Source: Parvularcula lutaonensis
Lineage (GTDB): Bacteria; Pseudomonadota; Alphaproteobacteria; Caulobacterales; Parvularculaceae
Length of the DNA stretch: 64,000 nt
Direction: 5' to 3'
Assembly (NCBI RefSeq): GCF_014651915.1
Contig: NZ_BMXU01000002.1
Span: 935,507 to 999,506 of the forward strand
The position numbers were made by a program, and so were the translations under genes. The notes beneath the pieces are model-generated. The model was not told where the DNA came from. It saw only the letters and a list, made by a program, of their open reading frames with translations, and did no database searches. Below, one piece after another: positions 51,493-59,701 of the stretch (positions are counted from its first letter, which is position 1; every line of letters begins with the position of its first letter).

Positions 51493-51577
51493 GTAGGGCG
51501 GAACGCGCAGCGATCCGCCATGCGATCCATCAGCCAGCATCACCACCGACGGCGGATCGCTGCGCGTTCCGCCCTAC
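51493..51577. repeat. REP-type palindrome, left of the RAYT gene
   Basis: A perfect 27-bp inverted repeat, beginning GTAGGGCGGAACGCGCAGCG on the left arm (51493-51519) and ending CGCGTTCCGCCCTAC on the right arm (51551-51577), flanks a 31-bp spacer. The transposase stop codon (51576-51574) lies inside the right arm. The same arm sequence recurs beyond the other end of the gene. Confidence 0.9.
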
Positions 51578-52044
51578 AGGTGCATGTCCTCTGGCGGCAT
51601 TTCCCAGGTGAGGCCGTTCTCGCGCTTCCAGCGGTGCCATGTCGAATGGGGCCACTCATCCATGTCGCGGACCAGCCCGTGCTTCACCGGGTTGTAGTGG
51701 ACGTAATTGACGTGGTTCGCGAAATCCTCGTCTGAGCGGATGGTGTGTTCCCAGTAGCGCGGTTGCCAGATGCGCTCGCCGAGGGCGTTCGTCACGCGCA
51801 GTTTGAACCCGCGCCACCGCCCCGGATAATCCGTATCCCCCTCCGGCAGGGTCCACACCGCATGAAGATGATCCGGCAGCACACAGAACGCCTCGGTCCG
51901 GAACGGCCGCGCGGCGCATGTGGCGCGATAGGCCTCGCGGATGATGTCGATCCGGTCCGTCAGTGTACGCCGCCGCCGGTCGGCGAGGCAGAGGGTGAAG
52001 GCGAAGGTGCCCCCTTCTCCATACATGCGGCGGTAATTCGGCAT
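51574..52044 (-). CDS. REP-associated tyrosine transposase (RAYT)
   Basis: 156 residues from ATG 52044 (MPNYRRMYGEGGTFAFTLCL), the typical RAYT opening; a start 21 bases upstream is less likely. The metal-binding HUH motif is LPDHLHAVWTLP (HLH), and the probable catalytic Tyr lies in NYVHYNPVKHGLV. Both active-site elements look intact, and the length is normal. Members nick single-stranded REP hairpins. The last codons and stop run into the left REP arm, so gene and repeat are physically joined. Confidence 0.92.
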   Translation of the reverse strand: MPNYRRMYGEGGTFAFTLCLADRRRRTLTDRIDIIREAYRATCAARPFRTEAFCVLPDHLHAVWTLPEGDTDYPGRWRGFKLRVTNALGERIWQPRYWEHTIRSDEDFANHVNYVHYNPVKHGLVRDMDEWPHSTWHRWKRENGLTWEMPPEDMHL

Positions 52045-52092
52045 CCCGCCCCGTAAAGCCGCCACAAGAACATTTCAAGAACGAAGCACAGC

Positions 52093-57144: not shown

Positions 57145-57233
57145 CTGAGCCTTCCGGTTGCATTCAGCTCCTGCTTCGCTTTTGAACATGTTCGTCGGAA
57201 ACGACCAGCGGGTAAAAATTAAGAGGTTTTTCG

Positions 57234-59372
57234 ATGTCCAGGACGCAAAAGACCACTGCGCCGACGACGCCTCCGCGTCGTAGGACAACCAAAGCCACAA
57301 GCGAGAAGGCTGCCGACATGGCCGACGACAAGCCGACCACGAAAAAGCCTGCCGCGAAAAAAGCGGTCGCGAAGAAGAGCGCGGCGAAGAAGGCGCCTGC
57401 CCGGAAAGCGCCCGCGAAGAAGGCAGCTCCCCGCAAGGCGCATGCGAAAAAGGCCAGCGTCAGCAAGGCCACTCCCAAGAAGTCCACACCGAAAGAAGCT
57501 GCCCCGAAGAAGGGTCCCATCCCCGCCGAGCAGGTGAAGAATCCGCCCGCGAACAATCCCTTTGCAGGCGCTGTCGCTGCCGATCTTGGTCCTTATACGG
57601 ATATGGCCCAGCTCGCGCGGACGATGGCCGACATCAACATCAAGGCGCAGGAGGTCCTGCGCGATGCGGCCGAGCGCCGGATCGACAGGGGCCTGCGCGG
57701 AACCGTCGAGCCGGCAGACCCCCTGAACGTTGCCGAGGCGACGAGCGAGGTGGTCACCGCCATCACCTCCGACCCGTTGAAGGTGATGAACCTGCAGATG
57801 TCGCTGTGGGACAATTACACCAAGCTCTTCGCGACCATGACCGAGAAGCTCTCTGGCAACAAGGACGCCGAACCGGTCGTCGAACCGAGCCCTTCGGACC
57901 GCCGCTTCCAGAACAAGGCGTGGGAGGAGAACCCGGCCCTCGACTTCGTCAAGCAGAGCTACCTGATCCTGTCGCGCTGGGTCTATGAGGCCATCGACAA
58001 GGCCGAAGGGATCGACGACGCCACCAAGCGGCGGGCGCAGTTCCATGCGGACCAGTTCCTTTCGGCCATGTCGCCCACCAATGTCCCCGCCCTCAATCCC
58101 GACGTGGTCGAGGAGGCGATGGCGACGAAGGGCGCCAATTTCATCAAGGGCCTCGAGAATTTCATGGCCGACCTCGAGCGCGGCCACGGCGAGCTGGCGA
58201 TCAGGCAGGCCGATCTCGATTTTTTCAAGGTTGGCGAAAACCTCGCCACCACGCCGGGCAAGGTCGTCTACCAGAACGACCTCATGCAGCTCATCCAGTA
58301 CGAGCCGACGACAGAAACCGTGGCCGAGCGGCCCATGGTGATCTTCCCGCCGTGGATCAACAAGTTCTACATCCTCGACCTTCAGCCTTCGAACAGTTTC
58401 ATACGCTGGCTCGTCGACCAGGGCCGGACGGTGTTCGTCGTCTCCTGGGTGAATCCGGGGCCGGAGCTGAAAGACAAGTCGTTCCCGGACTATATGCGCG
58501 AAGGCGTCTACGAAGCCCTCGAAGCCGTCACCCGCGCCACCGGCGCGGAGAGCTACGATACGATCGGCTACTGCATTGGCGGCACGCTGCTGGCGACAAC
58601 GCTGGGCTACATGGCGCAGCAGGGTGATGAGCGGATCAATACCGCGACCTTCTTCACCGCACAGACGGATTTCAGCGAGGCCGGCGACCTCCTTCTCTTC
58701 ATCGACGACAAGCAACTGGCCAACATCGAGAAGCAGATCGACGCGTCAGGCGGCGTGCTCGAAGGCTCTGCCATGGCGCGGACCTTCAACATGCTGCGGC
58801 CGAACGACCTCATCTGGTCGGCCTTCGTCGACAACTATTATCTCGGCAAGGAAGCGAAGAAGTTCGACCTTCTTTACTGGAATGCCGACAGCACGCGGAT
58901 GACAAAGGCGTGCCACCTCTATTACCTCAAGAATTTCTACCGCGACAACAAACTGGCCAAGGGCGAGCTGGAGATCGAGGGGGTGCCGATCGACCTGACC
59001 GCCGTGAACACGCCTGTCTTCATGCAGGCCGGCGAGAAGGACCATATCGCGCCGCCCAACTCGGTCTACCGTTCGGCGAAGCTCTTCGGGGGCGACGTGA
59101 CCTATATGCTGGCTGGGTCCGGCCACATCGCAGGGGTCATCAACCACCCGGACAAGAAGAAGTACCACTACCGGACCAATGAGAACCTGCCCGACAGTCT
59201 CGATGCCTGGAAAGCCGATGCCGAGATGCACCAGTACAGCTGGTGGCCCTACTGGATCGAGTGGCTGAACGAGAGGTCCGGCGGCGAGATCCCTGCGCCA
59301 CGGCCCGGCGACGGTGAGCTGACGCCGATCGAGGACGCACCAGGGTCCTACGTCAAGGTGCGTGCGGAGTAA
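57234..59372 (+). CDS. phaC: Class I poly(3-hydroxyalkanoate) synthase with a histone-like N-terminal tail
   Basis: 712 residues, about 120 longer than usual. The catalytic region has the PHA-synthase lipase box GYCIGG with Cys 447, and the later acid and His in QAGEKDHIAPP and GSGHIAGVIN. It polymerises hydroxyacyl-CoA into granules. Residues about 36-93 form a Lys/Ala/Pro-rich tail (KKPAAKKAVAKKSAAKK and similar repeats), like the DNA-binding tails of histone H1-like proteins and the granule protein PhaF. Even a later start at Met 29 would keep the tail. AAGAGG lies about eight bases before ATG 57234. The tail's role is inferred. Confidence 0.94.
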   Translation: MSRTQKTTAPTTPPRRRTTKATSEKAADMADDKPTTKKPAAKKAVAKKSAAKKAPARKAPAKKAAPRKAHAKKASVSKATPKKSTPKEAAPKKGPIPAEQVKNPPANNPFAGAVAADLGPYTDMAQLARTMADINIKAQEVLRDAAERRIDRGLRGTVEPADPLNVAEATSEVVTAITSDPLKVMNLQMSLWDNYTKLFATMTEKLSGNKDAEPVVEPSPSDRRFQNKAWEENPALDFVKQSYLILSRWVYEAIDKAEGIDDATKRRAQFHADQFLSAMSPTNVPALNPDVVEEAMATKGANFIKGLENFMADLERGHGELAIRQADLDFFKVGENLATTPGKVVYQNDLMQLIQYEPTTETVAERPMVIFPPWINKFYILDLQPSNSFIRWLVDQGRTVFVVSWVNPGPELKDKSFPDYMREGVYEALEAVTRATGAESYDTIGYCIGGTLLATTLGYMAQQGDERINTATFFTAQTDFSEAGDLLLFIDDKQLANIEKQIDASGGVLEGSAMARTFNMLRPNDLIWSAFVDNYYLGKEAKKFDLLYWNADSTRMTKACHLYYLKNFYRDNKLAKGELEIEGVPIDLTAVNTPVFMQAGEKDHIAPPNSVYRSAKLFGGDVTYMLAGSGHIAGVINHPDKKKYHYRTNENLPDSLDAWKADAEMHQYSWWPYWIEWLNERSGGEIPAPRPGDGELTPIEDAPGSYVKVRAE

Positions 59373-59548: not shown

Positions 59549-59701
59549 ATGACTGATCAAAGGTCAAAAACCAGAGAGCTTCTCGAGAAACTCGCTTCGA
59601 CCGAGTACCGACGCTCCGTGCGCGCGGACCAGATCTTCCGTACCCTTCGTGACGAACCGCCGCGCAACGACAACGAACCCAAAAAGGTCGCCAAAGCCTA
59701 G
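59549..59701 (+). CDS. Small hypothetical protein downstream of phaC
   Basis: 50 residues, strongly charged: TKTRELLEKLASTEYRRSVR is helical and the tail PPRNDNEPKKVAKA is basic. AGGG is close to the ATG. It shares CTAG with the convergent sulfotransferase stop, as other convergent genes here do. It lies 176 bases after phaC, and the gap shows no clear terminator. No family is recognised. It could be a small DNA- or RNA-binding protein, but this is speculation. Confidence 0.5.
   Translation: MTDQRSKTRELLEKLASTEYRRSVRADQIFRTLRDEPPRNDNEPKKVAKA

Follow-up and report, generated by a model that had tools for sequence, protein, structure and literature searches.

A Lys-rich N-terminal tail on an alphaproteobacterial class I PHA synthase, a candidate nucleoid tether in cis

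The placement of PHA granules and their sharing at cell division are known mainly from two separate tethers, PhaF and PhaM. The phaC gene described here raises the question of whether the polymerase might carry such a tether itself. It lies in the window, by which we mean the whole stretch of 64,000 nucleotides that was analysed, and belongs to a genome of 2.95 Mb that is close to Parvularcula. The original prediction held that a tail of Lys-rich KK repeats, like those of histone H1 and PhaF, precedes a normal class I catalytic domain in this protein and could bind granules to the nucleoid. The gene, its start region and the parts of its product are as follows.

57213-57215 (+): in-frame stop TAA, seven codons 5' of the phaC ATG, read from the sequence
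57221-57226 (+): Shine-Dalgarno-like AAGAGG, 7 bases 5' of the phaC start codon, read from the sequence
57234-59372 (+): phaC, class I PHA synthase of 712 aa with a basic N-terminal extension; ORF with ATG start (TIGR01838, 1.4e-217; PF07167, 5.3e-72)
57234-57548 (+): basic tail, residues 1-105, net charge +25, pI 11.1, predicted to be disordered (composition; AlphaFold2 pLDDT)
57318-57320 (+): second possible in-frame ATG (Met29), with GAGAAGG 8 bases 5' of it; a start here keeps the whole 35-94 repeat (sequence)
57336-57515 (+): tail core, residues 35-94, a KK-spaced Lys/Ala/Pro repeat of net charge +21 (composition, shuffles)
57411-57425 (+): PAKKA motif, residues 60-64 (sequence)
57603-57692 (+): predicted helix, residues 124-153, joining the tail to the synthase body (AlphaFold2, pLDDT about 60)
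57897-58412 (+): PhaC_N domain, residues 222-393 (Pfam)
58572-58574 (+): Cys447 in a GYCIGG box, invariant in 20 aligned synthases (alignment)
59040-59042 (+): Asp603, invariant in the same 20 synthases (alignment)
59124-59126 (+): His631, invariant in the same 20 synthases (alignment)

A short ORF of 50 residues directly 3' of phaC (59549-59701, +) may or may not be a gene. Elsewhere in the window is an ORF (51574-52065, -) that we take to resemble a REP-associated tyrosine transposase.

Judged by its sequence, the synthase body is a standard class I PHA synthase with the predicted catalytic residues present. TIGR01838 matches residues 178-709 at 723.4 bits, above the curated cut-off of 622.65 for class I PHA synthases, and the best named match is the P. 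mediterranea synthase, with 80% identity across residues 96-712 in a comparison from which the window genome's own records were possibly excluded. PhaC structures are the best Foldseek matches of the model (9KNJ, 5XAV and 5HZ2) and also its solved relatives by sequence. Cys447, Asp603 and His631 are presumably the catalytic residues expected for PhaC. AlphaFold2, run with 20 sequences, returned pLDDT below 50 at residues 1-33 and 35-121, an ordered body (mean 76) and a helix at 124-153 of modest confidence. The tail is, in this model, a predicted disordered arm preceding the N-domain.

The composition of this arm agrees with the original prediction of a Lys-rich repeat ahead of a normal catalytic domain. 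Residues 1-105 include 25 Lys, 24 Ala, 15 Pro, 12 Thr and 6 Arg, and the core at residues 35-94 holds 20 Lys, 2 Arg, 18 Ala and 7 Pro; the rest of the protein, residues 106-712, has a net charge of -28 and a pI of 4.8. Compared per 60-residue stretch with the other members of a set of 52 largely non-overlapping, ATG-started window ORFs of at least 100 aa, phaC has both the highest net charge (+21; the runner-up reaches +13) and the most Lys (20; the runner-up, which we take to be translation initiation factor IF-3, has 17). The spacing of the lysines also departs from chance. The window tail has 7 spaced KK pairs where shuffled sequence gives 1.1; the counts are 45 against 7.9 in the genus and 55 against 17.4 in the rest of the family, and none of 500 shuffles reached them in any of the three sets. 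PAKKA occurs 8 times in the genus against 0.4 in shuffles (reached in 0 of 500) and is present in 6 of the 10 proteins, while the single PAKKA of the window protein alone is within chance, 27 of 500 shuffles reaching it.

The likeness of the tail to histone H1 and PhaF stands in part. Pfam HC2 (PF07382, histone H1-like) matches residues 6-94 with an E-value of 1.8e-6 at 28.7 bits, and phaC at 35.4 bits when run on the window genome, both under the cut-off of 40; NF038053 (histone H1-like protein) scores 26.5 bits against the synthase, under its curated cut-off of 80. AAKP is absent from the window tail and is not above shuffles in the genus and family, though it is slightly above them in the order set (4 against 1.1, reached in 11 of 500). 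With AAKP not enriched, calling the tail PhaF-like relies on its composition and on how the KK pairs are spaced. A second HC2 match in the window genome was read as spurious, the likely gene there being a Gly/Pro-rich protein on the opposite strand. Searching the window genome with the tail alone returned only phaC, by a search insensitive enough to have also missed the synthase tails in 8 of 9 genus relatives. In one genome of the window family (G015), a MarR-family regulator (L104:55-1284) carries the same Lys/Ala-rich, HC2-like repeat over about 110 C-terminal residues (HC2 34.4 bits, cut-off 40).

The original prediction had named a translation start 3' of the tail as the case against it, an artefact in which the repeat would be absent from the protein. 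Met124, Met131 and a GTG at residue 101 are in-frame candidates downstream of the repeat, and Met29 has its own Shine-Dalgarno-like site. However, a start at Met29 still keeps the repeat, no in-frame ATG occurs from there until Met124, and Met1 is preceded by AAGAGG. Relatives share features of the start as well: an MTQ(A/V) start precedes the tail in 12 of 22 non-genus family members, and an MS(R/N/K)T stretch is common to the four closest genus members, at the start or, in L041, which has an earlier ATG, near it. Non-synonymous change per site is lower than synonymous change in all eight tail pairs computed; in the pair L051/L052, for example, 90 ungapped tail codons give a pS of 0.50 and a pN of 0.25. 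Tail dN/dS is 0.16-0.38 in the six measurable pairs, values subject to uncertain alignment of the repeats, and the other two pairs are saturated (pN/pS 0.50 and 0.65); body dN/dS is 0.01-0.18, with one saturated pair at pN/pS 0.06. The site before Met1 and the tail dN/dS favour a translated tail, and we consider the artefact highly improbable. The tail is almost certainly translated and, from the pattern of substitution, is under selection.

We compared N-termini across the family and order, as the original prediction had proposed, under a strict rule in which a tail is a 30-residue stretch with a net charge of at least 8 and at least 5 Lys. By this rule a tail is present in 10 of 10 genus genomes, in 17 of 22 further family genomes whose N-terminus could be read and in 5 of the 20 order relatives that have a main synthase. 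Truncated N-termini (L070 in G025 and L072 in G023) were excluded from the counts; two further genomes (G012, G016) gave no match and one (G024) a distant match only. The remaining 5 of the 22 have weaker but Lys-rich stretches (K 6-8, net +4 to +7), and two further order relatives have Arg-rich stretches of net +7 and +9. The second-type paralogues, among them that of the window genome, are all untailed (0 of 10), as are the additional second-type synthases of four genomes that lack a main synthase (G040, G052, G056 and G060; 0 of 4). In the paralogue L102, probably an over-long ORF, a segment rich in Arg reaches net +11 but contains no Lys, and L102 fails on the Lys count.

Further out, a match was found in 123 of 192 genomes of the class. 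Among 40 class N-termini, 5 of the 20 whose match reaches residue 102 or earlier are tailed, against 0 of the 20 whose match begins at 105 or later. The phylum sample gave a match in 83 of 199 genomes; 3 of 16 N-termini pass the strict rule, 9 of the 16 having been picked for reach into the tail, and all three are in the same class, while 0 of 4 from outside it pass. A synthase-body tree of 94 rows requires at least 10 changes of tail state, on a short search in which 31 of 91 forks are weak and weak tails are scored as none; the tree omits 2 of the 40 class loci and 6 of the 10 paralogues. By these changes and the census counts, the tail marks the window family and appears to have been gained or lost repeatedly elsewhere in the class.

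A PF05597 (PhaF/PhaI) phasin was not found in the window genome or in nine genus relatives, and the domain is not reported for the window synthase itself. For PhaM (NF043076), the best score in the window genome is 12.2 bits against a cut-off of 38, in a search that had no positive control, 14 control genomes likewise being without an above-cut-off PhaM; NF043076 is not reported for the window synthase either. Two Phasin_2 matches occur in the window genome, the first a 147-aa phasin and the second within an acidic lipoprotein-like ORF, and both are without a basic tail.

Other genomes carry basic tails on phasins. Strong basic stretches occur on the PF05597 phasins of six order genomes (L136, L137, L195, L196, L201 and L204), which have no tailed synthase among the synthases examined; four of the six have second-type synthases only. 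One order family holds both arrangements: in G044 the synthase is tailed and no PF05597 phasin was found, whereas G048 has an untailed main synthase and a PF05597 phasin (L136:1459-2169) with a strong PhaF-like Lys/Ala tail. Four genomes of the window family (G022, G027, G030 and G036) combine a tailed synthase with a PF05597 phasin whose basic end is short. Because these four carry basic tails on both proteins, simple replacement of one by the other is not the rule.

We also counted across genomes, scoring the four that have second-type synthases without a main synthase as untailed. By raw counts PF05597 is present in 7 of 32 tailed and 16 of 24 untailed genomes (Fisher p 0.001). A strong phasin tail is present in 0 of 32 tailed and 6 of 24 untailed genomes (p 0.004) at a threshold of 10 that was set after seeing the data, and in 4 of 32 and 7 of 24 (p 0.18) at a threshold of 8. 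When kinship is considered, four independent pairs on well-supported branches are left and no direction is significant. Order-wide replacement of PhaF by the synthase tail, hinted at by the raw counts, thus has no support once kinship is considered.

Among order relatives, the PF05597 phasin L193:589-1425 (G037) ends in a helix-hairpin-helix domain (HHH_5 27.3, just above the cut-off of 27), and both it and the phasin L195:597-1622 (G057), in which HHH_5 is not reported, end in an ITGVGP/IKGVGP segment. Phasins with such ends are possibly another granule-DNA tether.

The idea of a synthase tail as an anchor is already published, for Cobetia PhaC2, in the one paper on a synthase with an HC2-like tail that the literature search found. 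The available portion of that paper describes a class I synthase whose extension is HC2-like, of high pI and for the most part disordered, with AAKP motifs in four sequences; its authors speculate that the extension replaces PhaM as the nucleoid anchor, propose carbonosome-DNA binding, and mention NF038053 for H. bluephagenesis PhaC2, data not shown (PMC8686332). Cobetia PhaC2, as described there, and the window protein are alike in being class I synthases with a disordered basic extension in cis. However, the Cobetia extension is C-terminal and of ~380 residues, whereas that of the window synthase is N-terminal, of ~105 residues, and borne by the main synthase of an alphaproteobacterial family. 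The window synthase is without a Cobetia-type C-terminal extension, as the TIGR01838 model runs to residue 709 of 712.

A basic Lys/Ala/Pro tail that is predicted to be disordered is common to PhaF/PhaM-type tethers and the window synthase. Pseudomonas PhaF is a granule-bound protein with a disordered Lys/Ala/Pro tail, but it is a separate phasin that joins PF05597 to a tail of AAKP type; in the window the tail is on the polymerase and is without AAKP, and the genome yielded no PF05597. PhaM of Ralstonia eutropha (Cupriavidus necator) has PAKKA in a basic histone-like tail and ties the synthase to the nucleoid, according to the available part of PMC9049629, but it too is a separate protein, and the window genome has none above cut-off. 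The histone H1-like proteins of HC2 and NF038053 have a similar Lys/Ala/Pro repeat, whereas the window matches are sub-cut-off and the repeat is fused to an enzyme. An N-terminal equivalent was not found by title and abstract start in the open-licence literature, among the matches listed, and tail-related terms are absent from PMC3556143. The N-terminal, lineage-wide and recurrent alphaproteobacterial form looks new in the literature searched.

According to the available portions of the papers concerned, PhaF and PhaM tails bind DNA and serve to distribute granules (PMC5658603; PMC9049629), and PAKKA is named as a motif for the attachment of PhaM to the nucleoid (PMC9049629; PMC11352279). We reason that the window tail most likely binds polyanions and acts chiefly as a nucleoid tether in cis. 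The polycationic tail would bind nucleoid DNA non-specifically; the synthase, staying at the granule surface, would begin the polymer on the chromosome and would carry granules into both daughter cells with no need of a separate PhaF or PhaM. In certain related lineages a tail of this kind sits on a PhaF-type phasin instead. DNA as the partner is pointed to by the contrast between G044 and G048, the tailed phasins, the helix-hairpin-helix phasin and the failure to find PhaF or PhaM. Given the four doubly tailed family genomes and the dependence of the counts on kinship, we hold the chances to be about even that the tail is a nucleoid tether in cis on a class I synthase, without a separate PhaF or PhaM. 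More tentatively, and at somewhat less than an even chance, the polymerase itself may be the granule-chromosome tether in the window family, within an order-wide scheme of a movable tether (basic tail or helix-hairpin-helix) on the synthase or a PhaF-type phasin, with granule inheritance repeatedly rewired by moving the tail.

Polycationic tails also bind RNA and polyphosphate. The tail may bind polyanions in general, with polyphosphate or RNA as its main partner, and would then link the growth of granules to polyphosphate bodies or to the ribosome-rich cytoplasm and not to DNA. Composition cannot separate these polyanions, and in the genus and family the tails contain much Lys but few aromatics (33 F/Y/W/C among 2925 tail residues). 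We nevertheless think such a partner unlikely: the available text of the reports on PhaF and PhaM, the look-alikes whose function has been reported, ties both to nucleoid DNA (PMC9049629; PMC5658603), the same type of tail is found on the MarR regulator of one relative, and the one order phasin with a helix-hairpin-helix points to DNA.

It is also conceivable, though somewhat unlikely, that the tail acts inside the granule, pairing with the acidic body or with neighbouring synthases or phasins and modulating dimerisation, lag phase, solubility or the number of granules. Opposite charges do meet within this one protein, +25 in the tail and -28 in the rest, and the synthase bodies of the family, with a mean net charge of -20 (n=31, range -29 to -7), are more acidic than the bodies of 13 order relatives in which a tail is clearly absent or at most weak (+1 to -17). 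In another synthase, truncating the N-terminus alters granule number, granule size and polymer mass, by the available portion of PMC10867992. Against this, an acidic body is also seen in several order relatives that have no tail, and balancing of the tail by the body is not supported, as their charges show no significant correlation across the genus and family (rho -0.25, p 0.17, n=31, with the truncated row L048 dropped).

If the tail does tether the synthase to the nucleoid, it would offer a one-protein version of granule tethering. In engineered producers, a tail of this kind could be used to control how many granules form and where they lie, and it could explain how granules are inherited where PhaF and PhaM are not found.
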